A stretch of DNA of 64,000 nucleotides from assembly GCF_032854445.1 (NCBI RefSeq), contig NC_088305.1, positions 7,319,606-7,383,605 of the forward strand, given 5' to 3'. This document shows, piece after piece, positions 25,279 to 59,200 of the stretch (the stretch's first letter is position 1; the number at the start of each line of letters is the position of its first letter). This DNA comes from Liolophura sinensis. Lineage: Eukaryota; Mollusca; Polyplacophora; Chitonida; Chitonidae. The notes beneath the pieces are model-generated. The model was not told where the DNA came from. It ran no database searches and saw only the letters and a list, made by a program, of their open reading frames with translations. A program made the translations under genes and the position numbers.

Positions 25279-26823
25279 AACTGACGACCAAAGGAAATTT
25301 TACGACACCGTGAGTTAAATTTAACCAGCCTTTTCAGCAAATTAATACCAAATTCTTGTAGGAAAACATTGTACGAAGCATATTTCCATGTGCGACAAGC
25401 GTCATATACGCCCACACGAATTTGTTTTAAGACAATGAAGAAAGTTGAAAAATCACGTGACCCATGGATGGCCGCAACTGCACACGTATTGTGTATGAAA
25501 CCTTACACACAGTGTGCTGGACTTGCACACTGACTAAACACCACCAAAGTACTGCCTCGATTTACTCCAGAATAACGCGAGAGGGCCCTGGTATGGTATC
25601 CATGGGAGCCACCCATGCCCACATTGCAAGGACCTTCGGCTGCTCTGGTGTAACTGTGTCAAACTTGATGCAACGTTACAGACAGACAGGGCAGACATCG
25701 GACAGGCCAAGAAGAGGCAGGCCTAAGGTAACTACGCCCAGAGAAGACGGGTACCTACGCACCTCACACCTGAAGAACAGCTTCCTGGCAGTGACTTCAT
25801 CGTCAATCAATGCCTTAGGTCACCGGGTCAGTCGGCAGACCGTGTCCAGGAGACTCATGGCTCGCGGAATTAGGGCCTATCGACCATTCAGAGGGCAGTT
25901 GTTGACAGCCGAACATCATCGCCAGAGGTTGCGATGGGCTCGAATTGTACGCCGTTGGCAGTGACGTGATTGACAACGTGTTGTTTTCACGGATGAAAGC
26001 CGCTTCTGACTGTTCCGAGCCGATGGCAGACAGCGAGTTTACCGTCGAAGAGGCGAACGAACGGCTGCATCATGCGTCCAGGAAGTGGTACCGTTTGGTG
26101 GCGGCAGCGTGATGGGGTGAGGTGGGATTTGTGGAGAGGAACGGACACGACTGGTCCTCATGGTGCTCATTGTTAACAGCTCAATGTTACGTGGATGAAA
26201 TTCTGCGTCCTTTTGCCCTGCCATTCCTTCAACAGCAGCCACGTGGTGTCCTGTGCCAGCATGACAACGCCAGACCTCATACAGCTCAAGTTGTGCAGAA
26301 CTTCCTGGACGCCAACGACGTCAGCGTCTTGCCGTGGCCTGCACATTCTCCAGATATATCCCGCACAGAACACCTTTGGGATATCATGGGTCGTCGAGTA
26401 AGACAACGGCCACAGCCTATCGACAAGAACTGGCATTCGCTCTCCAAGATGAATGGCAACGAATCCCACGTCATCTCAGACGACCGACCTTTTCTATGCG
26501 TCGGAGAGTTTTTGCATGCAATGAAGCAAGGGGTGGTCACACGCGATATTGATTAGTTTTGATATTGACCGAATTTAAAAATAATCAACTTTTTGTATAC
26601 TCTGCCCATTGTTAACCAAGATGGAATGACTATTGTGCCAGTCCTGCTCTGTTTTTTCACTTGTAAAATGATTTGGGAGCTGCTTTGTCCGTTCTTACTC
26701 AAGACTTTCAATATCTAAAGTCAGTGGTCTTTTTAATATATTAAACTTCAGTCATCCTGTATTTTTGCTTTGGCAAAATAAATTGATTTGAACTCTTTGT
26801 AAAGTTTCTTTTGGCCGTGAGTT
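25279..26823 (+). mobile_element. Decayed Tc1/mariner element (DD34E)
   Basis: The 1545-bp element has imperfect terminal inverted repeats: AACTGACGACCAAAGGAAAT at the left, and AACTCACGGCCAAAAGAAAC read from the right end inward. It is flanked by TA on both sides, the target duplication expected of Tc1/mariner transposons. The empty site can be read from neighbouring minisatellite copies (GACATAGTTTTGTCC), so the boundaries are firm. It contains the broken transposase described separately. Confidence 0.93.
25464..26556 (+). pseudogene. Tc1-like transposase remnant
   Basis: An N-terminal helix-turn-helix region (THAHIARTFGCSGVTVSNLMQ) and a basic linker (DRPRRGRPKVTT) lie in the frame closing at 25964. 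The catalytic core follows with a first aspartate in FTDESRF near 25990, GGGSVMG near 26100, a second aspartate in DNARPHTA, and a glutamate in EHLWD near 26370. Thirty-four residues separate the second D and the E, so the class is DD34E. In-frame stops just after 25960 and near 26115, plus frame changes, make it nonfunctional. It would have cut and pasted its host element. Confidence 0.93.
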
Positions 26824-31574: not shown

Positions 31575-32069
31575 ATGACGACAGTAAACATGAAATCAGA
31601 ATTGTTGATGGAATCCCGACTTCGGGCTGAGAGCAGGCAGCCGCTTCAGCGCCGTCGTTTGGCGAAGACGGCCTCAGCCTGTGCGGTGTTGGAAAATGGA
31701 GAGTGCGATCCCGACTTGAATCTGGCAATTCAGGAGAGTTTGAAATTAGCTCGGCAAAACGAGCTCAAGCAGGCCGCGGCAGCTGCCCTGGCCAACTCAA
31801 GCGCCAAAGAAGAGGACGAGGAAAACGAACCGGGTCGACCGAATGGACCTCCGGCGAAAGACAAGTCCACGAAATCAAACGACAAGCTGATCGAGGTGAA
31901 GTCGTCCGCGCCGAAGTCAGGCAAAGCGATTTCGTCCTCGTCGGCTTCCTCTTCATCTAAACAACTGGAAGGATTGTTAATGCTGCATTTAGATTTGATC
32001 CAGCATCAACAAGAACTCATCACGACCAAAGACAAGGAAATCGTCAATCTCAGAGGAGACAAAGAAGCG
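31575..32069 (+). CDS. MSL1: MSL1 coding exon 1
   Basis: 165 codons, from ATG at 31575 to GACAAAGAAGCG before donor GTAAGT, phase 0. It encodes the Ala/Glu/Ser-rich N-terminus and the first half of the coiled coil. A second in-frame ATG lies five codons downstream, so the exact start is uncertain by a few residues. Confidence 0.9.
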
Positions 32070-35000: not shown

Positions 35001-38000
35001 TGTGAGTTAAAGTCCAGCTCATGCTGGCTTTCTCTCCGGCCATACGTGGGAAGGTCTACCAGCAACCAGCGGATGGCAGCGCACCATAATGCTGGCCGCC
35101 TTCGTATTAGTGAAATATTATTGATTACGGAGTAAAACACCAATCAAATAAATAAATTATGTTTGAATGATTTATTTTATTAATCTGGCATGTACGTGCA
35201 TGTACATGTATACATTAAGAAGAGTGCATGTGTCTGTACACTGCAAAAATTCAACCATTTGAAATCTAACAAAGTTGTTGACAACTATCAAGGCTTTATT
35301 CATGTGATATTTTGTTGAGCATGGTATGTTCAATTTATAATTTATTCCAAATCAGCAGTGAGTCAATTTGGATCATTCTGTAAAATTTGAAATGAAAAAG
35401 AGAAATTATTAGTGGTAACATATAAGAACCCGTGAACATGTATAATGAGTATACATGTACAGTGTACATGTAGTTCAAATTACTGGGCTGATTATGCATA
35501 TGTAATAGACATGTATAGACTCATATTGTGAGAACTCGCTCTGCTGTCGTCTGTGTAACTGTGCAACATTTCCTAATTACCCCTGATCTACATGTATGTT
35601 GGCTCTTTCTGATGCAATCATCTTGCACCATTTTCTATCATTTAAGTACAGCATTGTACTAGTAGTACATGGTCATTGGTGTGAGTTTATGAGAGGCATC
35701 TATTCTTGAACCTAGAAATGCGAGAAACTTCATCTTAGACTAAATCACTGAATTTGCCTTATTCTAGGAATTTGGTTGACCTATGTAAAGGTGTTTTGAA
35801 GTTTGTCTGGAAGGTAGGGGATGTCTGTCTAGAAAAATAAAAGTTTCAGCACTAAAAAGTGAGGTTTTAGGATGTTAATTTATTCCTAAAAATGTTTTTT
35901 TTTTTTTTTTTAGGGTTCTACAGATTACTGTCCTCTGTAAACATCAACTTAACCTGCTACGTGTATGTACAGACTTGTTTTATATTGTGTCATGTACATG
36001 TAACAAGAAATTACTTTTTTTGTCTATAAAGTGAAATTTCTCACGTTTTGGGTTTTCAGCTGAAATGTCGACTAGAGCGCATGGAGAGAAGGATGGCTAT
36101 TCTGAAACATAAAGAGGATGTTCTCGGGGCTGCCCAACAGGCACGCACTTCCACTTCGGAGTCTCCCGCAGCCGTGCACACACTAGAGAGATCGCAGAAA
36201 AGGTTAGTTGTAACACGGGGAATTTTCACAGAAATACTTCTTGCCTATAGACAACAGTGTGGATGTTGGCCTGACATACATGTATTGTTCGTTGTTGTGG
36301 GGTGATCAGTGGGAGACTAGAGGATGTGCTAAATGAAAGGATCCAAAGTTTTGATAGACATTTGTTATATTAGGCAATTCCAAAGCAATTATGTTGTTAA
36401 ATATTATTCGCTGTCAGTCACAAAAAGAAAAGAGAAAGTTTAGATGCCATAATAATGGTTTTGTTTTGAAATTATAGTGTTTTTCTTTCTTCAATCTCTC
36501 TTTTTTTGTCTTTTTTAGTAAAAATATTGGGTTTTGGTAACATGTACATGCTGGTGATCATTCAAACAATATGTGTAAATGAAATTTTTTTGAAAATCCT
36601 GTACATTTCAGGAAATCCAGCCTTGAGCCACAGAGTTTGAGTAAAAAATTTGCTGGGGATGTGGGGAAACAACAGAGACGAGTGTCATCAGCGGCCAAAG
36701 GAGCAAAGTCTCAGGCCAGTGGGGCAGACAGGCCATATTATTACAAACGCGGGTCGCGGAGAAAAGTTAACCTGGAAGAGGAGGAGGAAACTCCGGAAAG
36801 TTTAGCCCGAAAACGATTCCTCCAGAAACGTGAAAAGATTCACGATGAACACACGATTATTCGTACTGATAAACTGTCTCAGATCGTGCACTATGTGCCG
36901 CCGTTTGAAGACGGGGACGAGGCGATACACGAACGTCTGAGAGCAGACACAGCAGGGAAACGCCAGGCAGAAGGTGGGTGTGATTAGCTGTTAGCCTCAT
37001 CAAGACAACGCTTCCTCAAGTTTAAAGTTTTGTTTCCATTTCGGTGGTTTTCTAAGATTTATAAAACACCTCTATCAAGGAAATGGGAAGACCTGTAGTG
37101 GTATAATAGTGGCCAATAGTTACTTCACCCAAGTAACCTTGCTATAATATTAGATAACTGGGGAGTATTGGGGATCTACCATTATCTCCAAAATTGTGTT
37201 TTGGAAAGTGTCAGGCACCTATAGCTGTTTTTACCATTTGTCGCCATGATGAGGCTGAAACATTGCCCATTTATGCCCACTTGTAAAGTTCATAAAGTAA
37301 TGTGTTCTTACATATTGTTGTTTACAACTGTATTTTGTATCGCTTAAGCATTGTTTCCTGGAGTGGCGCTACAGTTTATACAGAGTGATATGTATTGATT
37401 TTTACATGTAGGTTTGGAGAGAAAGGAAAGAAAGTATTGCATCAGTTTATACTATAAACATAACAGTTTGTAATTTCTGTCGAATCACCCTGTCAATAGA
37501 TGACAAACAACCAAAGTAAAGCCTTTATGATCTGTTTGTAGCTACCTTTAATTTAGCATACAGTCAAACCTGTTCTATGCGGCCAGTGAAGGGAGACTTG
37601 AAAAGTGGCCGCATATGACAGGCTGTGATGACCAAGCCAAATCACAACTGAATTAAGTTTCAGGAAATCTACACATGTACATAGTAAACTTATAAATAAT
37701 TGTTAAAACACTAATCTGTTCTGCTACATACATTTTATAGAAATATAACAGTTGTAGTGAAATAATAACCTCAGTTCACCATTAATGATCAAACTTCATT
37801 GGTCATCACAACGTGGCAGGTTGTAACTTTTAATGACTACAAAAACTTCCGAAGCCTGTGGTTGTCATTTTGAAATTTTTGAATGTCCAATGCGGCAATC
37901 ATCATTACTGTTGAAAGTCTCGGCTGCTCAGGACAGGTAGATATAGAATTTGGTCGCAAAATATATTGGCCGTTGGACAGGTGCCCGAATGTTACAGGTC

Positions 38001-41000
38001 GTTTAACATGGAAAATTGTTTGGTCGCAGGAGAGAGTGGCCGTTGACGGCAGATGGATGCTGTTTACCGGTGGGCGTAGGTACAGGTTTGACTATTTGAT
38101 TGTATCCTTCTCAATAAGAGACATCTGTATGTAGGTTTAATATGATATACTGATTTGATTTCAGTTGAGATCCCAACATGGCGTTACAGAACTGTACCAA
38201 ATTGTTACACATTGGAGGGCACAGAGGTGAGTTGTCTCCCTTCTGATTACATGTAAATAGAGGGCAACATGTACTTTGATGTTATTTGATTGAGTACAAA
38301 GATATGATATGTCTGATAAGAGATGAATCTGTTGCATGTGCAGGGCCATATGTGGAAAACAAGTTGAAGGTTCTGTTTCAAAACTTCAAAAGCCACTGTG
38401 CCCAGACGTATTACAAAATGCAACTCAGAGTGATGCTATCTGATAGCTTTTAGGTCTGTGAGTAAAAAGTTTGTCATTAACTTGCCAGAGGGCGGTGGTT
38501 TACACCAGGAAGTCTTATTCCTCAACTCGTGGAACCGACTGCCACCATGAAATGTTGTTGAAGTTCACCAACCAATCCAACTCTTGTGTCACTCTTAGTT
38601 TCTGGATGATAACTGTAGTATCATACAAAACATAGTATCATATTGAATGCAGTAAAACATGTTAGTAGTTGTTTAAAAGCTGTAAATGTATTTTTATGGC
38701 AGTTTTCTTATTTTTTAAAACTTTATCAGTCATTTTGCATTTTCTTATTTTAATTTAGAATTTAGAAGATGAGGTGTTCACAAAACGACATCAGAAGCCT
38801 GAGTACGAAGAAAAGAGAAGAAAACGGTATGTAGCCAGCAAGGAGAGCCACTCCCTGGAGTAGTACCCTTTGATATCTGTTGTTCAGGCTTCTCTATCCA
38901 CATTTCATATCATTCCTGGTCTCTGGGATCATAAACGTGAAGCTTAGCGACACACACATATGGCATTATTCTTTACCTTCTGTTTGGTGATGAGGTCTAA
39001 TGTCCATTGTGCCAGCGCGTTGCAGTGACCCAGAAGCTTGTTAACAATATGATCAGCGTGTAAGTACAGCTCATGCCGTCTTCCTCTCCCTCCGTATGTG
39101 TAATGCTAATCAAATAAAAAAAATGAATCTAATGTTCATATATTGTGACATTATACATACATGCAGATCTATATTTACTCCACGTGCTAAAAAAAAAAAA
39201 ATATAAATGGTTGGCCTCAAGTTGAGCACAGCAAACATTTGAGAAAATAAGGCTGGGTTTGTCTCGGTAATTTTTGTGATGTAGAGTTTAGGCTGTAATA
39301 AGTCCCTGGAGATGAAGCATTGTGGTAATCGCCTGTGTCCCTGTAGATTATGGGCTCTGTGTCTCTTCCCTTACCCGATAAACCAGACAACCATCTTTCC
39401 CACATCTACATTTGAACCTCAGTGACAAGAATTCATTTGCAGTAGGGCAAAAATGCTAAAATATGTTATTGCGACTAAATGCACCATCATAAATAACAGT
39501 TCAAGAACTCCAATTATGAGTTATCCCAGCATAAATTACTAGATTGTTTTCGGTTTGAACAAAGATGAAGCTGATATTACTCTTGTCTTGATTTTTAGAT
39601 ATACTCATTACCTTTCAAAATATTGTGCAGTGTGGTCACTTGTGCTGGCTTCCTCTCCGGCCGTAAGTGGGAGGGTCTGCCAGCAACCTGCGGATGGTCG
39701 TGGGTTTCCCCTCTCTCCCCGGTTTCCTCCCACCTTAATGCTGGCAGCCACCATATAAGTGAAATATTCTCGAGTATGGCGTAAAACACCAATCAAATAA
39801 ATAAATAATATGAAAATATTGTGCTCTTGCATTTTAAGGTGGGACCTTCAACGGTTACGAGAACAGAGAATGTACGAACATTTGAAAGAGAAGGAAAAGA
39901 TTCCAGAGTTTGTGGGTCCTTATCGACCTAAAGACAACCACACCATCACTTTCTTCCCATCTATAGAAGATAGTAAGTTCAGTTTGCTAGGTCCTTTAGT
40001 ATCATACAGCCAGATCAGTGTAGTAGGTTGGGAGCAGTTTGTGGGTCCTTATCGACCTAAAGACAACCACACCATCACTTTCTTCCCATCTATAGCAGAT
40101 AGTAAGTTCAGTTTGCTAGGTCCTTTAGTATCATACAGCCAGATCAATAGGTTGGAAGCAGTTTGTGGGTCCTTATCGACCTAAAGACAACCACACCATC
40201 ACTTTCTTCCCATCTATAGAAGATAGTAAGCTCAGTTTGCTAGGTCCTTTAGTATCATACAGCCAGATCAATAGGTTGGGAGCAGTTTGTGGGTCCTTAT
40301 CGACCTAAAGACAACCACACCATCACTTTCTTCCCATCTATAGAAGATAGTAAGTTCAGTTTGCTAGGTCCTTTAGTATCATACAGCCAGATCAATAGGT
40401 TGGAAGCAGTTTGTGGGTCCTTATCGACCTAAAGACAACCACACCATCACTCTCTTCCCATCTATAGAAGATAGTAAGCTCAGTTTGCTAGGTCCTTTAG
40501 TATCATACAGCCAGATCAGTAGGTTGGGAGCAGTTTGTGGGTCCTTATCGACCTAAAGACAACCACACCATCACTTTCTTCCCATCTATAGAAGATAGTA
40601 AGCTCAGTTTGCTAGGTCCTTTAGTATCATACAGCCAGATCAGTAGGTTGGGAGCAGTTTGTGGGTCCTTATCGACCTAAAGACAACCACACCATCACTT
40701 TCTTCCCATCTATAGAAGATAGCAAGTTCAGTTTGCTAGGTCCTTTAGTATCATACAGCCAGATCAATAGGTTGGAAGCAGCTTGTGGGTCCTTATCGAC
40801 CTAAAGACAACCACACCATCACTTTCTTCCCATCTATAGAAGATAGTAAGTTCAGTTTGCTAGGTCCTTTAGTATCATACAGCCAGATCAGTGTAGTAGG
40901 TTGGGAGCAGTTTGTGGGTCCTTATCGACCTAAAGACAACCACACCATCACTATCTTCCCATCTATAGAAGATAGTAAGTTCAGTTTGCTAGGTCCTTTA

Positions 41001-44000
41001 GTATCATACAGCCAGATCAATAGGTTGGAAGCAGTTTGTGGGTCCTTATCGACCTAAAGACAACCACACCATCACTTTCTTCCCATCTATAGAAGATAGT
41101 AAGTTCAGTTTGCTATGTCCTTTAGTATCATACAGCCAGATCAATAGGTTGGAAGCAGTTTGTGGGTCCTTATCGACCTAAAGACAACCACACCATCACT
41201 TTCTTCCCATCTATAGAAGATAGTAAGCTCAGTTTGCTAGGTCCTTTAGTATCATACAGCCAGATTAATAGGTTGGAAGCAGTTTGTGGGTCCTTATCGA
41301 CCTAAAGACAACCACACCATCACTTTCTTCCCATCTATAGAAGATAGTAAGTTCAGTTTGCTAGGTCCTTTAGTATCATACAACCAGATCAATAGGTTGG
41401 AAGCAGTTTGTGGGTCCTTATCGACCTAAAGACAACCACACCATCACTTTCTTCCCATCTATAGAAGATAGTAAGTTCAGTTTGCTATGTCCTTTAGTAT
41501 CATACAACCAGATCAATAGGTTGGAAGCAGTTTGTGGGTCCTTATCGACCTAAAGACAACCACACCATCACTTTCTTCCCATCTATAGAAGATAGTAAGT
41601 TCAGTTTGCTAGGTCCTTTAGTATCATACAGCCAGATCAATAGGTTGGAAGCAGCTTGTGGGTCCTTATCGACCTAAAGACAACCACACCATCACTTTCT
41701 TCCCATCTATAGAAGATAGTAAGTTCAGTTTGCTAGGTCCTTTAGTATCATACAGCCAGATTAATAGGTTGGAAGCAGTTTGTGGGTCCTTATCGACCTA
41801 AAGACAACCACACCATCACTTTCTTCCCATCTATAGAAGATAGTAAGTTCAGTTTGCTAGGTCCTTTAGTATCATACAGCCAGATCAATAGGTTGGAAGC
41901 AGCTTGTGGGTCCTTATCGACCTAAAGACAACCACACCATCACTTTCTTCCCATCTATAGAAGATAGTAAGTTCAGTTTGCTAGGTCCTTTAGTATCATA
42001 CAGCCAGATTAATAGGTTGGAAGCAGTTTGTGGGTCCTTATCGACCTAAAGACAACCACACCATCACTTTCTTCCCATCTATAGAAGATAGTAAGTTCAG
42101 TTTGCTAGGTCCTTTAGTATCATACAACCAGATCAAAAGGTTGGAAGCAGTTTGTGGGTCCTTATCGACCTAAAGACAACCACACCATCACTTTCTTCCC
42201 ATCTATAGAAGATAGTAAGTTCAGTTTGCTAGGTCCTTTAGTATCATACAGCCAGATCAATAGGTTGGAAGCAGTTTGTGGGTCCTTATCGACCTAAAGA
42301 CAACCACACCATCACTTTCTTCCCATCTATAGAAGATAGTAAGTTCAGTTTGCTAGGTCCTTTAGTATCGTACAGCCAGATCAATAGGTTGGAAGCAGTT
42401 TGTGGGTCCTTATCGACCTAAAGACAACCACACCATCACTTTCTTCCCATCTATAGAAGATAGTAAGTTCAGTTTGCTAGGTCCCTTAGTATCGTACAGC
42501 CAGATCAGTGTAGTAGGTTGGGAGCAGTTTGTGGGTCCTTATCGACCTAAAGACAACCACACCATCACTTTCTTCCCATCTATAGAAGATAGTAAGTTCA
42601 GTTTGCTAGGTCCTTTAGTATCATACAGCCAGATCAATAGGTTGGGAGCAGTTTGTGGACCCTGACCGAACTAAAGACAACTACACTGCCACTTTCTACC
42701 CCTCTAAGATAGAATATTCAGTTTCTAAGATTTGTTAATTGAGCAATAAGCTGTGTGGGGGATCTGGCCTCAGTGCTGGTGTCACCTGGACATGTAACCC
42801 TTAGTTCTGTATTAGAAGCAGTGCTTCACCTGGGGAAAATTCTGGCCAATTTTAGACTTTATAGGATGGTAAGCATGAGTATCCTGCCAAAAAAAATGAG
42901 TGAAGGAGATATCCAATAGTCATGGATAGAATTTTGATTAAAGTTTTTTTGTGTACATGTTGAAATATTGGCAAGATAAGTCAACTTTCTTTGTGCTTTT
43001 GAGGTCACTTCAAAATATCTTTAGAGGTAAAAAAAAGGAAACAGATATTTGCCATGCAATTTGTTGCAGATTTCAATACAAATGCTTGTTTGATTTTTGT
43101 GTTTTTCAGTTACTCATATTGAAGTTTGTGATAAGATACCTGTATCAGCATTTGGCTGCCCCATTCCTTTCATCAAACCCAGGTAAGATGTTTTTTAGAA
43201 TACTGAACATCTTTAGAAAAAGATTTCTCCCCAAAATATGGTGACATCAATCAATACACATGTGCATTTAATTAATTTGTTAACCCCTGTTCAAATTTGG
43301 CAGATTTCATTTTATTATGTAATAATGTTACCAAATATCTATTACAGATCTGTAGAAATCACAAAGTAGTAGACACCTTCAGACTCACCCTGGTCACATA
43401 ACTGAACAGTTTGAAAGTACCCCATAAAACCCCAAACCTACATACATATATACCACAAAGAGTATTACATTTCTTTATCAACCTTTCAGAAAAGTAAAGA
43501 TATAAATATGTTGTTCATTAGATGGTCTAACCATGTGTGAAAAGAGAAACTCAATATTCCTGCTAAAATTACATATATATTGGCTAAAATGAGCAGACCA
43601 GGTGTCCCAAATTTTTTAAGAAATAGGGCAAGGTTTCAATGAAATAAAAGTACAGTATATAGATATTGGGGATTCCACGTTCATAACTTAAATGATATAA
43701 AACTACACATGTGCACGTTACTCGTCTGTAATAAAAATATGAAGTTGAATGTGACTTCTTTCCACCCCATCCAAGCAGAAAGTGAAGCCCTAAAGATATG
43801 TACATAGCATGCCTTATTTGCTGTTATGTATTCAGAATGTGGTAAACTGCTCATGACAGAATTAATGCTGTTTTTTCACTATAGGTCTGATTCACTCATT
43901 CTAACGCACTAACCTCCAATTTTTGACCGTGTTAGTCCACCATAAAGGCAAAGAAAATACTAATGTGAAATATATGCCAGTTGAAAGACCATCACTGTCC

Positions 44001-44636
44001 ATAAAATGGCATGTAGTTCAATTTACGAAAGTAAAATGCTTTTGAAACTTTAGATTCTACAGTGGCATTTTCTGACCATACTGAGACCAGTGATGTCACA
44101 TGAGGTTTTTGTCAGTTAGGCCACATAGCCTGCTTGGTTTCATCATTCAAAATGAATGTACGTATAATAACTATTTCAAGCGAAAGACATGGATGTGATG
44201 TCACTGATACCCTCTGGGTCACTACAAACCACCTTGAATCTGACGTTTTAAAACCATTTTATTTGTGTGGAAAAATTCACAGGAAAATAAATCGAACAAT
44301 TTTCCTTGACTGTGTTTAAATTGGCTGGTATATACTTTATTGCAGTGTTTTCTTTAGCTTTAAATTTTGGCTTGTTCTTTGTGTTTGTTGTTCTTTAAAT
44401 AGCCAACAAGGAAAGCAAGAAAATACCAACGCTTAGATGCGTTCTCACCTTTACAAATGTATGTATTTCACACTAAAAGCATGATATGTTTTCACATAAT
44501 TATGTTTGTAATTTTTAATGGTTAATCTGTCTTTTGCAGTGAATTTGATCTTCCCTGGGAGCACCAGATCAAAAAACCTCGAGCAGCAGAAAAAAACACT
44601 CCCAAGTCCACCCGTTGGAACATGAGACGAAAGTAA
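31575..44636 (+). CDS. MSL1: Male-specific lethal 1 (MSL1) homologue, 8 coding exons
   Basis: Joining 31575-32069, 36060-36202, 36612-36973, 38165-38226, 38759-38826, 39839-39972, 43110-43182 and 44540-44636 gives 477 residues with every junction in frame. MSL1 is the nuclear scaffold of the MSL complex (MSL1, MSL2, MSL3, KAT8/MOF) that acetylates H4K16. A low-complexity acidic and serine-rich N-terminus (1-130) precedes a coiled coil at about 133-190 (LLMLHLDLIQHQQE..KDKEI, then RLERMERRM), the MSL2-binding and dimerising region. A basic linker leads to a PEHE domain from about 334 (VEIPTWRYR) through SLEGTE-like TLEGTENLEDEVF, RWDLQRLREQR and IEVCDKIPVSAFGCPIP to EFDLPW near 450, the KAT8- and MSL3-binding part. 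It is somewhat shorter than human MSL1 (about 614 residues). Identification is from conserved motifs; complex membership is family knowledge. Confidence 0.94.
32070..36059 (+). other. MSL1: MSL1 intron 1
   Basis: A 4-kb AT-rich intron. It contains one full-length SINE-A (34925-35157), a GGGGT-rich stretch near 34220-34310 and scattered ACATGT motifs. No exon was recognised. Confidence 0.75.
34925..35157 (+). repeat. SINE-A, full length, plus orientation
   Basis: The best plus-strand copy. The tRNA-like head GGGGGCCTCCATGGCTCAGT then TGGTTAGCGCGC (A box) is followed by a B-box derivative GAGTTAAAGTCC. The body has CAGCTCATGCTGGCTT, GGGAAGGTCTACCAGCAACC and ACCATAATGCTGGCCGCC. It ends in AAAACACCAATCAAATAAAT. 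The head shows the family is tRNA-derived and transcribed by Pol III; mobility would depend on a LINE partner that is not visible here. Confidence 0.93.
36060..36202 (+). CDS. MSL1: MSL1 coding exon 2
   Basis: Acceptor GGGTTTTCAG, first codon CTG, donor GTTAGT. It encodes the second half of the coiled coil (LKCRLERMERRMAILKHKE) and ends in phase 2. Confidence 0.93.
36612..36973 (+). CDS. MSL1: MSL1 coding exon 3
   Basis: Acceptor ACATTTCAG, donor GTGGGT. It encodes the basic central linker (KRGSRRKVNLEEEEETPESL) and HYVPPFEDGDE, and ends in phase 1. Confidence 0.9.
37562..38093. mobile_element. MITE-like element with AGTCAAACCTGT ends
   Basis: The left end AGTCAAACCTGTTCTATGCG and the reverse complement of the right end AGTCAAACCTGTACCTACGC share 12 terminal bases. 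Both ends carry GCGGCCA/GTGGCCG-like subterminal motifs. The 532-bp interior has no transposase. It sits in MSL1 intron 3, 71 bp before exon 4. No target duplication was identified. Confidence 0.7.
38165..38226 (+). CDS. MSL1: MSL1 coding exon 4 (start of PEHE domain)
   Basis: A 62-bp exon between GATTTCAG and GTGAGT encoding VEIPTWRYRTVPNCYTLEGT, the conserved opening of PEHE. It ends in phase 0. Confidence 0.94.
38759..38826 (+). CDS. MSL1: MSL1 coding exon 5
   Basis: A 68-bp exon after TAATTTAG and before GTATGT encoding NLEDEVFTKRHQKPEYEEKR then RK. It ends in phase 2. Confidence 0.93.
39011..39128 (+). repeat. Degraded SINE-A fragment
   Basis: Weak matches to the head (GCCAGCGCGTTGCAGTGACC) and body (ACAGCTCATGCCGTCTTCCT), with the tail AATCAAATAAAA. 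It lies in MSL1 intron 5. Confidence 0.5.
39643..39808 (+). repeat. SINE-A fragment abutting the MSL1 exon 6 acceptor
   Basis: Body and tail of the family (GTGCTGGCTTCCTCTCCGGC, AACCTGCGGATGGTCGTGGG, AAAACACCAATCAAATAAAT). The tail ends about 30 bp before the exon 6 acceptor AG, so the branch point probably lies in or beside SINE sequence. Confidence 0.92.
39839..39972 (+). CDS. MSL1: MSL1 coding exon 6 (3' end amplified downstream)
   Basis: Acceptor GCATTTTAAG begins the exon 31 bp after a SINE tail. The exon encodes WDLQRLREQRMYEHLKEKEK then IPEFVGPYRPKDNHTITFFP and SIED. Donor GTAAGT starts at 39973. The last 65 bp of the exon plus the donor and about 59-64 bp of intron are the founding unit of the tandem array that follows. 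Joining this donor to exon 7 restores SIED-ITHIEVCDKIPVSAFG, so the first copy is the one that maintains the protein. Confidence 0.93.
39908..42730 (+). repeat. Tandem array of exon 6 end plus 5' splice site (22 full units, 1 decayed)
   Basis: Units start at 39908, 40037, then every 124 bp to 40781, at 40910, then every 124 bp to 42398, then 42527, with a decayed unit at 42651. The period is 124 bp except after units 1, 8 and 21, where a 5-bp insertion (CAGTGTAGTAGG instead of CAATAGG) makes it 129. Each full unit contains the coding end GTGGGTCCTTATCGACCTAA and CATCTATAGAAGATA followed by GTAAGT or GTAAGC. Units are nearly identical, whereas the last has lost the donor. Open frames read through parts of the array are by-products. 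Confidence 0.97.
39973..43109 (+). other. MSL1: MSL1 intron 6
   Basis: Most of this 3.1-kb intron is the exon 6/donor tandem array. The remaining 42731-43109 is AT-rich with no recognised element. Confidence 0.85.
43110..43182 (+). CDS. MSL1: MSL1 coding exon 7
   Basis: Acceptor GTTTTTCAG, donor GTAAGA. It encodes THIEVCDKIPVSAFGCPIPF then IKP, the conserved C-terminal core of PEHE. It is entered in phase 1 and left in phase 2. Confidence 0.95.
44540..44636 (+). CDS. MSL1: MSL1 coding exon 8 and stop
   Basis: Acceptor CTTTTGCAG. It encodes EFDLPWEHQIKKPRAAEKNT then a basic tail RWNMRRK, with a TAA at 44634-44636. Confidence 0.94.
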
Positions 44637-46707: not shown

Positions 46708-47022
46708 AATCACTTTGAACATAGCAGAACTTTCCTACACCGTGCATAAATCGTGGAACTCAAAGAAGTTCACATTGATGCATGGGTAGTATTATGAACA
46801 TGTTAGAGAGGTGCAACCGGACTCTACTGTAAGTAACGTGTACTGGGAACAGATATTACCTGTCGACTTTGTGTGTACATGTACGTGTATATATTGAATG
46901 TACAGGTGAAACTGGTTTTCTTGTTAGTTTGTACAACTTAGTTTTGTTTTGGGCAGTAAAATAAAATTTATTTTAGAAAAAAAAAAAATCTTTGGTTAAA
47001 GTTCAATACAATAAAGGAGTCG

Positions 47023-47336
47023 AACTATAAATCTTGACTTTGGAATGAATATTACAACGTACGACTGCTTCGGTGGCCTAATGGTTAGAGCATCCGCCTC
47101 AAAGTCTGGGGACCCCTGAATCAAACCTATGACAGGTCATACTAGAGACTTCGAAAATGGTACTTGTAAAAGAGCAAGGAACTATAAATCTTGACTTTGG
47201 AATGAATATTACAACGTACGACTGCTTCGGTGGCCTAATGGTTAGAGCATCCGCCTCAAAGTCTGGGGACCCCTGAATCAAACCTATGACAGGTCATACT
47301 AGAGACTTTGAAAATGGTACTTGTAAAAGAGCAAGG
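47023..47336 (+). repeat. 157-bp tandem duplication of a SINE head
   Basis: Two copies, starting at 47023 and 47180, each contain AACTATAAATCTTGACTTTG and the tRNA-like segment CTTCGGTGGCCTAATGGTTA / GAGCATCCGCCTCAAAGTC. They differ at about one position (TTCGAAAATGG versus TTTGAAAATGG), so the duplication is recent or an assembly artefact. Confidence 0.93.
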
Positions 47337-47510
47337 AAACAGAACAGGTTTGACCGGTGTACGTGTGTGACTAGGTGAGGTGTCCTGTCTGGTGTTTTCA
47401 GCATGATGCTTCAGTGGGCTGTGGCGGCATGGACTCGCCCTGCCCCGAGAGGACACAGTATATGTACATGTACACACGCGTAATGACAACTCCTTGTTAT
47501 ACGACTGAAA
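47220..47510 (+). repeat. tRNA-derived SINE, family B, full length
   Basis: A-box-like TGGCCTAATGGTTAGAGCAT and B-box-like CCTGAATCAAACCTATG are followed by the family B body (GGTCATACTAGAGACTT, GGAAACAGAACAGG, GTGTCCTGTCTGGTGTTTTC, GCGGCATGGACT) and the end AACTCCTTGTTATACGACT. It is homologous to 3803-4145. Confidence 0.82.
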
Positions 47511-50076: not shown

Positions 50077-50227
50077 TCAGACATCCGTCGGAGCTTGTGT
50101 GTCGTGATACTGGAATATTTTGATGTGATTGTCGGCAGCAGCCGATATCAACAGTTCTGGGATTGACCAATCAACAGCCAGGATCTTGTCATCGTGACCT
50201 GTCAGGTTGTACAATGGGGCTTTGGGA
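50077..50227 (-). CDS. WDR12: WDR12 last exon
   Basis: Acceptor TTCCTTGCAG. It encodes [20 protein letters not shown] then [20 protein letters not shown], with a TGA at 50079-50077. A full-length SINE starts about 28 bp upstream of the acceptor in transcript sense. Confidence 0.95.
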
Positions 50228-53200
50228 CTGCAAGGAAAAAAGTCAACACTTGATGATTTATTTGATCGGAGTTTACGCCTCACTCAAGACAATTTCACTA
50301 ACAGGACAGCATGGCATGCACGGTCTGAAGAAGCCAGGCAGAATTTGAGGAAACCATGACCATCTGCAAGTTGTTGGCAGATCTCCCCATGTACAACCGG
50401 AGAGGAAGCCAGCATGAGCTTTACCTCATATTCACAGCAACCCCGTTGAAGTCCAGGGTTATGGTGCTACGCTAGCACACTAACCACTATGTCATGGAGG
50501 CCCTCAATGCTTGACTTATTATTTCTTTCCAACACAAAGACACTTATCTAAAGAACAATTTTTACCACTCAGCTTACAAGACCTGAAAAAATTTCCCAAA
50601 AAGATGACTTTCTCTTCAAAACGTTCTCCAATAATATCTTTTATTACAAAGTCAATTAGCCTACTGAGTTAGAGGACCAAATTTTCTCCTTGAATTTGTG
50701 GGAAATCACATTTATTATAATCATTTTCAGCACCATACATGTACCTCCTGGTATCCCATAATTTCATGACTTTATCGTATGATCCTGACAGAAACAGGTG
50801 CTGATTGGTTGATGACCAGGCTACACTGGAGACCCAACCATTATGAGACGTGAAAGATGACTGGACAAGGGCCCCATCTAAAAAAAACAAAACAATTGAT
50901 TTAACTAACTGATTTCATATGTTGGCTTGTAATTTTACCCACATACTAAATTAAACACGGTTTTTGTAATAGTTATTTCCAGAAATACATAAAAGCATGC
51001 ATAAATTGCAATTAAAGCTGCTCTTTACGCGAAAAGGTTGAGGAATTGGGGTAGTCAGATTGTCTTACCTGGGAACAGGTAACAGTCATTCATATGTAAT
51101 CTCAAACATGGCAGGTGACACACCTCCATTTGAAAACTGAAAATTCTGATCCTATCACATGTTTTACTGTTTTCACAACAAACTGGATAATTTCTATTTT
51201 CCAATACGTTAGCAATCAGCCTTTTGCCTCTTGACTGAATGTGTGAAGAATGTGTGTCTGTTACTCAAGCTTATCATACATGTTTTGGATTGAAGTTTTA
51301 GGCTGTACTCATGAATATTTTGCTTATTCGACAGTGGCCAGCATTTTGGAGGGAGGAATCTGGGCAGATCCCACGGGGAAACCCACAATCATCTACAGGT
51401 TAGGTATATATGTACATGGGAACTTACAACCAAACCAGCATTTTGGAGGGAGGAAACCGAGCAGAGCCCACGGGAAACCCACAATCATCTGCAGGTTAGG
51501 TATACATGTACATGGGAACTTACAACCAAGCCAGCATTTTGGAGGGAGGAAACCGAGCAGAGCCCACGGGAAACCCACAATCATCTGCAGGTTAGGTATA
51601 TATGTACTTGGGAACTTACAACCAAGCCAGCATTCTGGAGGGAGAAAACCGGGCAGATCCCACGGGGAAACCCACAATCATCTACAGGTTAGGTATATAT
51701 GTACTTGGAAACTTACAACCAAGCCAGCATTTTGGAGGGAGGAAACCGAGCAGAGCCCACGGGAAACACACAATCATCTCCAGGTTAGGTATACATGTAC
51801 ATGGGAACTTACAACCAAGCCAGCATTCTAGAGGGAGAAAACCGGGCAGAGCCCACGGGAAACCCACAATCATCTGCAGGTTAGGTATACATGTACATGG
51901 GAACTTACAACCAAGCCAGCATTTTGGAGGGAGGAAACCGGGCAGAGCCCACGGGAAACCCACAATCATCTGCAGGTTGGGTATACATGTACATGGGAAC
52001 TTACAATCATGCCAGCATTTTGGAGGGAGGAAACTGAGCAGAGGAAACCCACAATCATCTGCAGGTTGGGTATACATGCACATGGGAGCTTAAAACCAAG
52101 CTCAACTCAATGCAACTGTTGCGTCTGGCTTCACCCCCTCATGTATGCATCATTACAACGTGAATCAACCGGTCAGACTTAAACAATTCGAGATGTCACT
52201 CACCAGTAACTCTGGGGTCATACAGTCGCACATGGCGGTCAGCCGAGGCTGTGACTAACGTCCTGCTCAGGTCAGAATACGCTAGGTCAAGGAATACTTT
52301 AGAGCCTTGCTGAAAAGACACAGGCATACACAGTGGTGGCACATGAGGGTGTTTTATCTCCTCGGACTGCAAGTCCCACATATGCTTGCGTGGTTGAATT
52401 TGTACAGTGAACAACCACACCCTTTATAATGAAATCCTGTCAACACAGGCGGCTTCATGTTTATGGAATTACTGTTATACAATGCATTGCGACTTTACTT
52501 ACGCACTTGAAATTAAGTTACATATTGGTTGTATGTTTGTTTTTGTTATCTTTTTTGTTTTTTTTTTTCTTTTTGCTCTCCATTGTAAAAACGGCACCCC
52601 TGATAAAGCTGCCACCTGTGTTTTTATTGGTCTTGGTTGATTTTGACAGATTTCACTGCATTTGTATCTTTCAAAGTGGCACCAGACAACCAGAGTGGAA
52701 AATAATTTCTGAATCTGATTTTTTTTTCTGATTTGTTTGTTAGTGTGGTTGCTGTTTTACATCATATTCCACAATAACACATCTGAACTTGATTGACAGA
52801 TTCAGGATTTACACCCAGACAGAGCGTCAGAGTGAAATTATTTCTACACTGAGAATAATTTTTCACGCATATGATGGCTGCCAGTTTCAGGGGTGGAGGA
52901 AAGCAGCGAGTCTGATAAGGTAACAACCATTAGTAAGTTAATGAGTGACTTACCCACATGTGGTGTGCATGCTTAGATACCATCCTATACGATTAGTTAC
53001 ATGGTTACTCAGTGACAGGATACAGAAATATATGGTGTCAGTAATCCTCATTGCTGACACCATATATTTCCGTATCCTATCACTGAGTAACTATGTAACA
53101 AATTTATCTTGCAAAGACCCATCAATTCAATGCAAAAGATCAATGTATAGGTGAATTGCTTCAGGAAGGGTGACCATCGTTGGACCCCAGCAAGGGGAGA

Positions 53201-56200
53201 TAACCTACTCAGCAAACACATTTGACGTCGTCTGCAGGATTCAAGAATATATCTGTATCCGACATGACTGTTGTTGTCCAATGAAAAGCGAAGTATTTTA
53301 TCTGATGCTGGATAAATGGCCATATTAGTTCTGGAAAACATTTGGCCTCCCAAATCTTTTGGCACCCTAATTAGTCCAGCTGTATTAAATTTAACAAGTA
53401 AATTGAACAAAAATGTAATGGTTTACCAACAAAAATTGAAGTTTTCACACAAGGCTCTGAGAAACCATAATTTTGAGTGGCTGTTCATAAATGTGTTCTT
53501 ACAGGGCTGCAATGTCACCTGTAAGGCTTGAGACCTGAACCTTCAATTTTTTCCTAGATATGACCCTGATATATTGGTGGAAGGGTCCTCAGGCAAATCC
53601 TGTATTAGAGTTAAAGTTTAAGTTTTTTCAAGTGATATTTTCTGCTTAATTCTGATCGATTCATTCACATTACAGGGCCACCTCAAGAGTTTTCTGGGAG
53701 GTTTGATTACTGTCTTATCAGAAAAACTTAGCAGTTGGCATTAAAAGTATTATTTAAAGGCATTTATGTGCTTTTGAAACTTTGGGTGAAATACACTAAA
53801 TATTAAAGAAAAAGACGACTAAAAATCTAAGTAGGCATCGCTAAACAGACCACTTTAAAACTATGCACAAATATACTTTCATATATTTTTTTAGATTTTT
53901 GTGAACAGAGTTAAAGGCACTCAAACATTTGAATTCTAAGGCGGGCTTTACTTACCACACTGTCAGAGGTTAGGAACTCTGACGTCACAGGAATTTTATC
54001 CTACTCTAATCACAACAATGAATGTTGGAAAAACTCTTTTTATCTATGAGTAAATGATTACTGAAATTATGCTCACAACAATTCCTTCCTTCTGGTGAAC
54101 ATCAGGAGAAAAAGGTGATGTGACGTCAGAGTTCCTAGATGCCGTCAGTAAGGCTTACAAAGCCCACCATTGTATTCAAATACTTAAATGCCTTTCAACA
54201 CTCAACAAATAAATGAAACTATTTTTAGGAATAGTTTTCTGTTGTCTGTACATTGAGCCTTACCTCACATTTTATCTTTCTTTTACTTTAAACTTCTCTA
54301 AGGCAACGGTTAACCATAAGGCTCCTGTACCAACAGTTGGGAGTCATTACACACAGTCATTAAACAACGGAGTGATGTCCCGCTTCCCAGAATTCCGATA
54401 CAAACTAGACCTTTGTGACTGAAATTGTCACTGATTGGACGACAGTAACATCTATGGGCGGAGGAAATTTTTTTTTTTTTTTTTTCCCAAAGGTACCTGG
54501 GGCTGATTGCACAAAGCTGTTCTGACTGAACTCAAAACTTGAAAACTCTTTACAAGGCATAGTTCTTGACACTAACAGTTGAAATTCAGATATGTTTGTC
54601 TTAAGATAACATTGATGAGGGGAACAAAATTTCAATTTCCAAATCACAAAAATAAACTTTAATGTTGCATTTCAAATTTTGATTTAAGTCAGAAATGGTT
54701 TGTGGAATCCGTCCCTTACAAGTCACATTCGAGCAAAACTTCTGCAGTCAGGAGGCCCCAAACACCAAAACAAAACGCTTATAGCTTACCAATGATGATT
54801 TCTGACTAGCCTTCTCGATGTCCCACATTCGGATGGTGTGATCCCATGATGCCGTGCACACTTGGTTGACTTCCAGCCAGCAAACCGATGAGATTCCCTC
54901 GGAGTGACCAGACAATGTGAGCAAAGGAACCTAGCAAAAAGCAGCGATGTAATCTGTTTACGTGTATTTGATTCGTGTTTTATGCTGTACTCAAGAATGT
55001 TTCACTTATACTACAACAGCCATCATTATGGTGGGAAAATACCAGACAGAGCTCAGGGAAACACACAGCCATCCGTAGGTAGCTGGTAGTCCATCCCACC
55101 TACGACCCGATTATGAAGCCAGCATAAGCTGGACTTGAACTCACAGCGACCACATAGTTTGTTTGATGTTTGAGGCCAAACTTTTCACCACATATAGAGC
55201 AGTTTAATGTACATCAACTGTCAAATACTGGGCAAGTTTCAGCAGTGTTTGGTAGCTGGCCAAGGCTTGTTGATTCATTCATACTCGACTGATAGTTATC
55301 ACCACACATGGGTATATTTCTCTTTGCTGGGAACCAAATTTATAGGTGGCGGAAACTATAATCAGAGGTCAAAATGGTTGGTCATTCACTTGCTTATAAG
55401 AGTTCAAAATCAAAAGCTAAACCTGAGGCCAGCGCTTCAATCAGATGAAGTTTTGCACCTAGCAAATAATCATAATTTTCACACATACTAGTACTGCATG
55501 TTGTACTTTACCGATTTCTAGGCTATTTTACAAATGATATAAATGCAATCTATTACATTTCAACCCTATAAACCCTCAAGTGTTGTCATCATCATCATCA
55601 GTGTCCAGCGCTCAAAATATCAAACACTCTGAGCTCTGAAAAGTGCTCTGGGTAAACCGCTGCACTTCTCCCGGTACTTGACAAACTGAACCTCCTGATA
55701 TTAAACCTCAGCAGAACCAGTGACGTGAGACTCTGGGGTCAGCATGAGGAAATTCCACCATTTTTTTCAAGTGTTTTATAAATTTATTGCAGTGTTCTTT
55801 TAACGCCAGATTCTTGAGTGGAGGAAGCTGGTGTGGCATACTGTGAGAATGGAATTATGATTTATTTATTTATTTATTTCATTGGTGTTTTACGTCGTAC
55901 TCAAGAATATTTCACTTATACGACGGCGGCCAGCATTATGGTGGGAGGAAACCGGGCAGAGCCTGGGGGAAACCCACGACCATCCGCAGGTTGCTGTCAG
56001 ACCTTCCCACATACGGCCGGAGAGGAAGCCAGCATGAGCTGGACTTGAACTCACAGCGACCGCATTGGTGAGAGGCTCCTAGGTCATTACGCTGCGCTAG
56101 CACGCTAACCGACTGAGCCACGGAGGCCCCCTTGGAATTATGAAGGTGATTAACTACTTTTCGTCACCAAGGCTCCAAAAACAATGACAATGAGTGAGTG

Positions 56201-59200
56201 AGTGAGTGATTGAGGTTTAAGGTCGTATTTAACAATTTTTCAGTCATATGACGACGAATCCTTAGAGTACATGTAATGTGCCTCCTTGTTGCAGGACGGA
56301 TTTCCACCATTCTTTTATCTAGTGCTGTTTCACTGAGACACCTTACAGAAGGCAAGTAAGCTGCCCCGCCTGAGTCATTATACTGATACAGGTCAACCAG
56401 TCGTTGCACTATCCCCTTCATGCTGCATGTCAAATGACAAAGTTACAACATTCTCTTTTAAGGTTTTAAATGTGACTCAACCCAGGATTGACCCTGGATC
56501 CACCACTCCCGAAGTAGACGCTCTACCAACTGTTGCTATCGGGGCCGATGCAATGACAATGGCACGTGTAAATGTAGCACGCTGAACAACTCCTGCCCTC
56601 AGCACGTGCTCACCCTTGTGTGGACTTTGGCTCCCTCCGTACGTTTCCGTTTGAGGGACTGATTTTCTGGCTCTGCAAACTCTTCTTCTAGGCTGATATC
56701 TGAAGACAAGTTTTGATAGTTTGATTACGGTATAGTTAAACACTGTCTTCACTATAGTTTGTCATCTAGTTTGAAAAATTACAACCCATTCTTCACCAGC
56801 TCATCTCAACAGTTAATTGTGCCCGTCATCGGGGAAATAATACCTGTACACTGAAAAGGTACAAGTATGAGTTTGAACTGTGAGAAATTTGAAATGAGCA
56901 AAATTGTGGATCAAACTCAAGACTCAGTTGAAGATCAGCAAAATTTTGACTCTAACTCAAGACTCGATTTGAGATCAGCAAAATTTTGACTCTAACTCAA
57001 GACTCAGTTGAAGATCAGCAAAATTTTGACTCTAACTCAAGACTCAATTGAAGATCAGCAAAATTTTGGATCAAACTCACGACTCAATTTGAGATGGGCA
57101 AAATTTTGGGTCAAACTCACAACTCAATTTGAGATGGGCAAAATTTTGGGTCAAACTCACGACTCAATTTGAGATGGGCAAAATTTTGGGTCAAACTCAC
57201 GACTCAATTTGAGATGGGCAAAATTTTGGGTCAAACTCACGACTCAGTTGAAGATCAGCAAAATTTTGGATCAAACTCAAGACTCGATTTGAGATCAACA
57301 AAATTTTGGCTCCATTTCAAGACTCAAAGGAGTGTCCAAACCTGCTGCTCCACAAGCTGAGCATTCAAACAACATGGCCACAACTTGAGCTGTAGAGCCC
57401 GGTGATATGCTGTGAACAGTTTCACGAAGGCACACACCATTTTAACATGATGTAGGGCATGTACAATGATTAATGTTATAAAACTGTAATCATTGTCAGG
57501 GGATAGCTGAAACAGATAAGAATGTCAACACTGATTGTTGATTGTTTGTAATGATAGGTATGGTCACTGGTAACTGTAATACAGTTATGTAACGTTGATA
57601 AACCTCAAGCCAGTTGGACCAGTGGCTGTTTAAATCTACTAGCACAGTGAAAATTCCACTGGCTTTGAATAATTTCGAGCCCTGCTCATGGGGGTGTTTG
57701 TGTATTACCCCTAACAGCATTTTCACAGGTCTCTAATGAGTCTGACATTATGGTACCCATTCATCCACATGTATGTAAGACATATACAATTCATACAGCT
57801 GTAGTACAGTGCTGCACCTCGTCAATACCAGGCAAAGCAGTAAGAGTCTTCCGTAAGAGCACAATAGGGGAGTTTCCAGTTGGAACTCTTTCATTATCAA
57901 AGGTAACCACAGTGTCATGTGAATGGTGAAAAATGTTCATAAGCAATCTTTGTTTACTTTCATTTACCGATCACCTGTCTCACCCTTTTCCAGAGGCACA
58001 AATGACACCTCTCTCCTTTAAGAACTTCTCAGGTTCGCAAAGATTCACATTCTCAATCTTCTCGAGCATTCCTCCACTCTAAATTACTTTTTTTGACACT
58101 TTTTCCAGGCAACCATGTTATAGTGAACGTGACCAAAAACAGTTGCCTAACATTTCTGACAGGTTACATGATACAGTTGGATCTTTTCTACCTTAAACCA
58201 TAAACCTCAAACTCGAAAAAGATAAACCTCAAAGTCAAAAACGATAAATCTCAAACTCGAAAACGATACACCTCGAACTCGAAACCTGATTGAAAAATTC
58301 AGAGCAATACTCACTTGCTGACCAAATTTTCAACATTTTGTCCCAAGACCCTGTACATATCTGAAAACACACAAACAATTTCATCACATTACTGGTCAAT
58401 AAGTCCATTGTATGAAATAAATTATCAGCACACATGTACATAATCCACTGCAATAGACCTTTCCAAACTGTCAATCAAGAGTACGCAATCGACCAAACAT
58501 AAGCAGTATTGTTGTAAATAGGTCAATCGGATGTCCCACACATTGGTTCCAAATTTTAAATCTTAATGTCTCAATAGCTTTCACCGGGAATGGAATGGAA
58601 AGTAATATCAAGAATGTTGTCATGAGAAGCGGTAGTGAGACATCGAATGTATCAGATTCATCCATAGCTTAATGCTTCTTTAACCTTGGTCCATAACATT
58701 ATTTCTTGGTAAAAACATTTAAAGCAAGTTTTAATAAATATGGATTTGATGTATTTCTATTATTTGATTATTGTTTAACAGTAATCAAAGTTTCCAGGGC
58801 AAAAATAACTGGCCCTTGGCAAGTTTTCTCGCAGGTGATGCAAGTGGTCTTCAACAAACTTATTTATTTATTCAATTGGTGTTTTATGTTGTACTCAAGG
58901 ATATTTCACTTAGACAACATCGGCCAGCATTATTGTGTTGGGAGGGAAGCAGGCAGAGTCCGGGGGAATTCCAAGAACATCCACAGGTTCCTGGCAGACC
59001 TTCCCACGTACAGCCGGAGGGGAAGCTAGGTGTTCAACAAATGTTAGGCTATGCCAACAGCCACTCATACATTGCGATTCATTTATTTTTTTTTATTTGA
59101 TTGAAGTTTTATGCCCATATCAAGAATATTTCATTGATACGACAGTGGTCAGCTTCTGGTGGCATCCACAGGTTCACAGAGAGCAAGGGCAATATAGCCT

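Follow-up and report, generated by a model that had tools for sequence, protein, structure and literature searches.

A tandem array across the exon 6/intron 6 boundary of a chiton MSL1 gene presents 22 near-identical splice donors

Introduction

The closest described parallel to the locus considered here is found in human CBS, where the variable number tandem repeat (VNTR) c.1444_1467+7(16_21), at the exon 13/intron 13 boundary, consists of 16-21 copies of a 31-bp unit (PMC2630376). Since this unit is composed of 24 exon and 7 intron bases, each copy brings a donor position with it. More CBS repeats go with lower CBS activity, according to a review that calls the repeat non-coding (PMC5188458). 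We describe here an array of this kind in the chiton Liolophura sinensis, in a 64,000-nucleotide stretch of the forward strand (NCBI RefSeq assembly GCF_032854445.1, contig NC_088305.1, positions 7,319,606 to 7,383,605), which is referred to below as the window and whose coordinates are used throughout. In this array, the end of exon 6 of the MSL1 gene, its splice donor and the start of intron 6 are repeated in tandem. As in CBS, the unit thus combines a coding exon end, a donor and an intron start in many tandem copies (22 in the chiton), but it is much longer, 124 or 129 bp (66 + 58 or 63) versus 31 bp (24 + 7). Moreover, the CBS VNTR is described as polymorphic (PMC2630376) and linked to reduced activity (PMC5188458), whereas the chiton array is known from one assembly. 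In view of this precedent, the chiton array is a longer-unit case of a known boundary-spanning type. A preliminary description of this DNA had stressed that most minisatellites do not include a constitutive exon/intron boundary; such a boundary does lie within the array, but the case is not the first, since the CBS VNTR precedes it (PMC2630376). No report of an array at the MSL1 exon 6 boundary was present among the literature matches listed, from searches not aimed at MSL1.

Other systems share some of these features. Tandem repeats at exon-intron boundaries have been described in human segmental duplications, where 27 intron modifications passed a manual check (PMC2812944); these are said to create novel introns, whereas in the chiton it is the start of an apparently old intron that was multiplied. 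In CBS again, 844ins68 is a 68-bp duplication of the intron 7/exon 8 junction, of which the distal site is used (the passage concerned speaks of a 'splice donor'; PMC2630376). Here too, a splice junction is duplicated within a gene and one copy strongly preferred, but the duplication is single, lies at an intron/exon junction and favours the more distal site. Finally, when two identical strong donors were made to compete under exon definition, with 365-nt flanking introns, five minigenes spliced exclusively from the upstream one, and a preference for shorter exons was noted (Carranza, Shenasa and Hertel, 2022; PMC9225289). The likeness lies in identical donors competing under exon definition for one upstream acceptor, the difference in two donors in a construct as opposed to a natural chiton gene whose 22 near-identical donors pair weakly with U1. 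The earlier suggestion that the locus offers a natural test of choice among identical 5' splice sites stands in so far as the choice is real, although such a choice has already been tested in minigenes (PMC9225289).

Anatomy of the array

According to Tandem Repeats Finder, 39907-42706 is occupied by a 124-bp unit repeated 22.5 times (96% matches, score 5164), which is far beyond chance. Splitting at the unit start yields 22 intact tandem units over 39907-42649, three of which (u1, u8 and u21) are 129 bp long and the other 19 are 124 bp long. A unit is made up of the 66 bp that end exon 6, followed by the donor and the beginning of intron 6, the intron share, donor included, being 58 or 63 bp. 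The components of the array are as follows.

39907-40035, forward strand: unit 1 (129 bp), with the end of exon 6, donor 1 (GTAAGT at 39973) and the start of intron 6
40036-42649, forward strand: units 2-22, with one donor copy each, including the 129-bp u8 at 40780 and u21 at 42397
42650-42728, forward strand: decayed unit 23 (u23), without a donor (nhmmer E 4.5e-12 in the window)

Seventeen of the 22 units have GTAAGT as their donor, four (u3, u5, u6 and u11) have GTAAGC and one (u7) has GCAAGT. Fifteen of the 21 further units carry a 66-bp exon part that is exactly that of unit 1, and five of the 21 copies match donor 1 exactly from -66 to +44. Altogether, there are 18 distinct unit types among the 22 units, and the longest exact repeat in the array is 364 bp. 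The last unit, u23, shows 11 changes in its first 56 exon-derived bases; six of its eight changed codons are non-synonymous, which indicates decay and led us to reject it as a working alternative exon copy. When the genome was searched with unit 1, the best candidates scored included 23 matches, every one at the MSL1 locus. A search of intron 5 and of the remainder of intron 6 brought up no decayed unit other than u23, the intron 5 match being at chance level (E 3.3). Like unit 1, u8 (40780-40908) and u21 (42397-42525) have the 129-bp form, and u21-u22 match u1-u2 at 98.4% over 253 bp, as if blocks had been copied and not single units alone.

The main elements of the preliminary description are upheld by these data, namely (i) a tandem array spanning the exon 6 end, the donor and the start of intron 6, (ii) one decayed unit after it and (iii) the need for splicing to choose among near-identical donors, as seen from the array and the donor sequences. 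Details shift slightly: the repeated exon end is 66 bp rather than 65 bp, the array begins at 39907 rather than 39908 in the same locus, and '21 near-perfect pseudo-donors' is slightly generous for 21 further copies, as 16 of them are exactly GTAAGT.

The host gene

The gene that harbours the array has eight predicted coding exons, listed below.

31575-32069, forward strand: MSL1 coding exon 1, with most of the coiled-coil that matches the MSL1-homolog chain 4b86_A
36060-36202, forward strand: exon 2
36612-36973, forward strand: exon 3
38165-38226, forward strand: exon 4, in which the PEHE domain begins
38759-38826, forward strand: exon 5 (PEHE)
39839-39972, forward strand: exon 6 with donor 1 (134 bp), whose final 66 bp belong to unit 1
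43110-43182, forward strand: exon 7, for whose acceptor all donors compete
44540-44636, forward strand: exon 8, the coding end, with stop TAA

Once joined, these exons encode a 477-amino-acid protein with a PEHE domain scoring 72.9 bits (cut-off 34) and with matches to three stretches of MSL1-homolog PDB chains that we take to be human. Chain 4b86_A matches residues 121-176 (E 1.8e-8), and the Pfam dimerisation domain PF16801 reaches 14.8 bits, below its cut-off of 25. Chain 2y0n_E, from what is presumably the MSL3-bound form (2y0m being presumably the MOF-bound form), matches across the exon 6/exon 7 junction without a gap (E 6.3e-7 for the normal form). Because this match spans the junction without a gap, joining donor 1 (39973) to the acceptor before 43110 appears to be the conserved reading, and since the reading across it is conserved, intron 6 is probably old. 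Judged from sequence, the gene is therefore MSL1 and its model appears sound: the PEHE score and the 2y0n_E match bear out the identity proposed earlier, and an alternative gene model, which could have moved the array away from the exon 6 boundary, finds no favour with a junction that lies inside the 2y0n_E match. For the CBS VNTR, the coordinates (PMC2630376) suggest that in the reference transcript the exon stops with the first copy. The chiton exon would probably do likewise, donor 1 yielding a junction that aligns to 2y0n_E without an insert.

An MSL1 retrocopy that would have recorded the spliced junction was also sought in the genome, but none was found among three PEHE candidates scored, which gave two matches. 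The other PEHE match, on contig C1, was rejected as a retrocopy because it is a different protein, presumably KANSL1-like.

Outcome of each donor choice

The frame consequences of the 22 possible choices, which the preliminary description had missed, can be read directly from modelled transcripts. Donor 1 gives the 477-amino-acid protein, and two further features determine the rest.

40102-40107, forward strand: donor 2, besides donor 1 the sole one to keep MSL1 in frame (+129 nt, 520 amino acids)
40182-40184, forward strand: in-frame TAA, reached by all modelled transcripts that use donors 3-22 or retain intron 6

The frame is thus kept by two of the 22 choices, and the remaining 20 share the stop at 40182. 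In the donor 2 form, a 43-amino-acid insert is followed by a rebuilt partner-binding segment, the second exon copy restoring the whole 2y0n_E match (E 3.1e-6 versus 6.3e-7 for the normal form). The stop at 40182 lies about 117 nt or more upstream of the exon 7/8 junction, and by the usual distance rule a stop this far before the last junction makes a transcript a target of nonsense-mediated decay. Exon 6 would measure 134 nt with donor 1, 263 nt with donor 2, 387 nt with donor 3 and 2,753 nt with donor 22. Skipping it shifts the frame, with a stop at residue 381, while skipping exons 6 and 7 together keeps the frame.

Exon definition and the probable use of donor 1

How could such an array have arisen, and how would a single donor be picked from it? 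We propose that a tandem duplication across the MSL1 exon 6/intron 6 boundary was followed by unequal exchange, which would have led to the present 22 intact units of 124 or 129 bp in an array without any required function. Exon 6 would be recognised as an exon, the donor nearest across the exon pairing with its acceptor, and the 21 downstream copies would be mere decoys that leave with intron 6. Errors to donors 3-22 would result in an early stop, and the transcripts would probably be degraded. Exon definition is to be expected here, because both flanking introns exceed 1 kb (1,012 nt for intron 5 and 3,137 nt for intron 6); the exon 6 acceptor is 134 nt upstream of donor 1. The minigenes with two identical strong donors point the same way (PMC9225289). 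We therefore consider it likely that donor 1 dominates, with some risk of exon skipping.

As for the origin of the array, tandem repeats with a period of at least 10 make up 14.7% of the window and 12.8% of 100 kb elsewhere (ten 10-kb pieces with 38 arrays, 0-38.5% per piece; one piece, L012, sits 7.6 kb upstream of the window). Expansion of the array needs no selection, because the genome is rich in tandem repeats. In such a genome, some arrays will have their origin at a boundary, and those in which the first donor stays functional can persist; one of the 19 merged arrays of the window overlaps an MSL1 exon, these being the exons compared. The decayed u23 suggests that duplication at this site is older than the present homogeneous array. 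Taken as a whole, a neutral boundary-spanning array in which exon definition leads to the use of donor 1 is, in our view, the probable explanation.

Several points weigh against it. The exclusive use of upstream donors comes from transfected minigenes whose donors were strong (CAG/guaagu); with both donors weakened, skipping became the preferred outcome for the L and XL exons, whereas the M and S exons still used the upstream donor (PMC9225289). In the human database examined in the same paper, the upstream donor wins in 60% of near-equal pairs, and before filtering for strength about 60% of all human events prefer the downstream donor (PMC9225289). In natural genes, the upstream rule is therefore a tendency, given this split of about 60%. 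Donor 1 itself is the weakest of the seven donors of MSL1 by U1 duplex energy (-5.6 versus -6.7 to -11.8 kcal/mol). Diversity within the array is the other difficulty: across the 22 units, the 66 exon-derived sites have a diversity (pi) of 0.0078 with 3 variable sites, and the 58 alignable intron-derived sites have a diversity of 0.0387 with 10. This roughly five-fold lower diversity of the exon part, which is not predicted by plain neutrality, has a p of 0.037 in a Fisher test on sites, a p of about 0.01 on label permutation and a frequency of 7/124 under circular shifts that preserve clustering, all uncorrected values from 13 variable sites, with u23 and the 5 bp that set the 129-bp units apart from the 124-bp ones excluded. 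Exchange between units, together with selection that acts on unit 1 alone, might be the cause.

Other explanations

This last idea can be taken further. The array might be policed by its working unit 1, with exon changes that reach this unit being purged by selection on the MSL1 protein and intron changes spreading freely, while the decoy donors may in addition hold U1 and help a weak exon. We regard this as a tentative proposal and an unlikely one. If it were true, selection on a single exon would keep more than 1 kb of non-coding pseudo-exon copies nearly invariant.

The extra donors could alternatively form a downstream hub that binds U1 and strengthens a weak constitutive exon, copy number tuning MSL1 output. 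Besides the weakness of donor 1, the 17 GTAAGT motifs of intron 6 versus 3 in the remaining 9.9 kb of the gene speak for this, and there are precedents, since U1 binding downstream of the natural donor raised exon recognition in PAH (PMC5933811) and two alternative donors can both be occupied though one is used (PMC5861446). However, the PAH variants are at +17 and +20 (PMC5933811), whereas the nearest copy here is 129 nt away, and more CBS repeats go with lower, not higher, activity (PMC5188458). GT sites of equal or greater U1 strength are also common (333 of 3,959 on the forward strand of the window), and such a hub strikes us as quite improbable. In suggesting U1 binding at unusual density, the preliminary description was too strong, as the shared donor forms the weakest U1 duplex of the seven.

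It is somewhat less probable again that the array acts as an isoform switch, with donor 2 used at a real rate to make a 520-amino-acid MSL1 whose linker is 43 amino acids longer before a rebuilt partner-binding segment. In its favour, the open 129 bp of unit 1 let donor 2 stay in frame, the 2y0n_E match is recovered in full through the second exon copy, and an exon of 263 nt is still of ordinary size. Nevertheless, u8 and u21 share the 129-bp length without any use for it, an open multiple of three is not rare by chance, the copied segment in u2 carries an E-to-A change, and donor 2 is disfavoured by exon definition.

More doubtful still is that the array serves as a poison, or a splicing leak, in which donors 3-22 or unit pseudo-exons bring in a premature stop and lower MSL1 output. 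The shared TAA at 40182 is consistent with this, as are the pseudo-exons of units 3-7, which end in a stop with either candidate acceptor, and the CBS repeat number that correlates with lower activity (PMC5188458). One of these candidate acceptors, CCTTTAG, has 12 pyrimidines out of 18, within the range of 10-14 for MSL1 acceptors, but acceptors were compared by pyrimidine count alone, and the other, a CAG at the unit start, has just 6 out of 18. The pseudo-exon of unit 2 (40000-40101, 102 nt) is open and in frame, although the intron preceding it would be just 27 nt long, and a strong loss of MSL1 would be selected against.

An expansion by the assembler of one or two real copies, which the repetitive sequence might invite, is very unlikely, since PacBio HiFi reads at 14X averaging 8,347 bp (PMC11068029, where the animal is named Liolophura japonica, the correction to that paper saying L. 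sinensis) outlength the 2.8-kb array, and spanning reads should have resolved 18 distinct types among 22 units with exact repeats of at most 364 bp, in a window without any N.

Several other mechanisms found no support. RNA structure is not indicated as the cause of donor choice, as unit 4, the sole unit folded against shuffles, folds no better than these (z -0.62; 52 of 200 as good). The accessibility of donor 1 is ordinary (probability of being unpaired 0.0086, with a range of 0.0003-0.0252 for the 22 donors and a 9-mer median of 0.0177 for the folded stretch), and no Rfam family reaches its gathering score over 38800-43300. A search of intron 6 for premature polyadenylation signals found no AATAAA and one ATTAAA, outside the array. 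Recursive (ratchet) splice sites are defined by a juxtaposed AG/GT, and were rejected because all 22 copies read ATA/GTAAG or ATA/GCAAG, with no AG directly before the donor. A duplicated, mutually exclusive exon was rejected as well, because the unit holds just the last 66 of the 134 bp of exon 6, without its acceptor.

Other features of the window and genome

The window contains a second large array at 59826-61700 (a 51-bp unit in about 38 copies), and a 157-bp unit present twice at 47022-47338 (99%), where a stretch looks tRNA-like by eye; a run of ARAGORN over the window yielded no tRNA. A Tc1-like transposase lies at 25461-26553 on the forward strand, in two open stretches with HTH_Tnp_Tc3_2 and DDE_3, both over their cut-offs. 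On the reverse strand, open stretches at 50080-59558 resemble exons of a WD40 protein by eye, and a scan of three of them placed one above the WD40 cut-off and the other two below. Elsewhere in the assembly, contig C99 has seven COX1 matches on one strand at a spacing of about 15.5 kb, one of them partial, with an eighth on C632; C99 probably represents several rounds of the mitochondrial genome that stayed joined in a single contig.

Concluding remarks

In conclusion, MSL1 of L. sinensis sets up, in a natural gene, the classic contest of identical 5' splice sites, with one upstream acceptor facing 22 donors that are near-evenly spaced. It also comes with a built-in readout, in that donors 1 and 2 keep the frame and all others share one stop, and RNA-seq and HiFi reads of the species could be used to test exon definition without a construct. 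More generally, it outlines that a CBS-like boundary-spanning array arises in a distant animal too.

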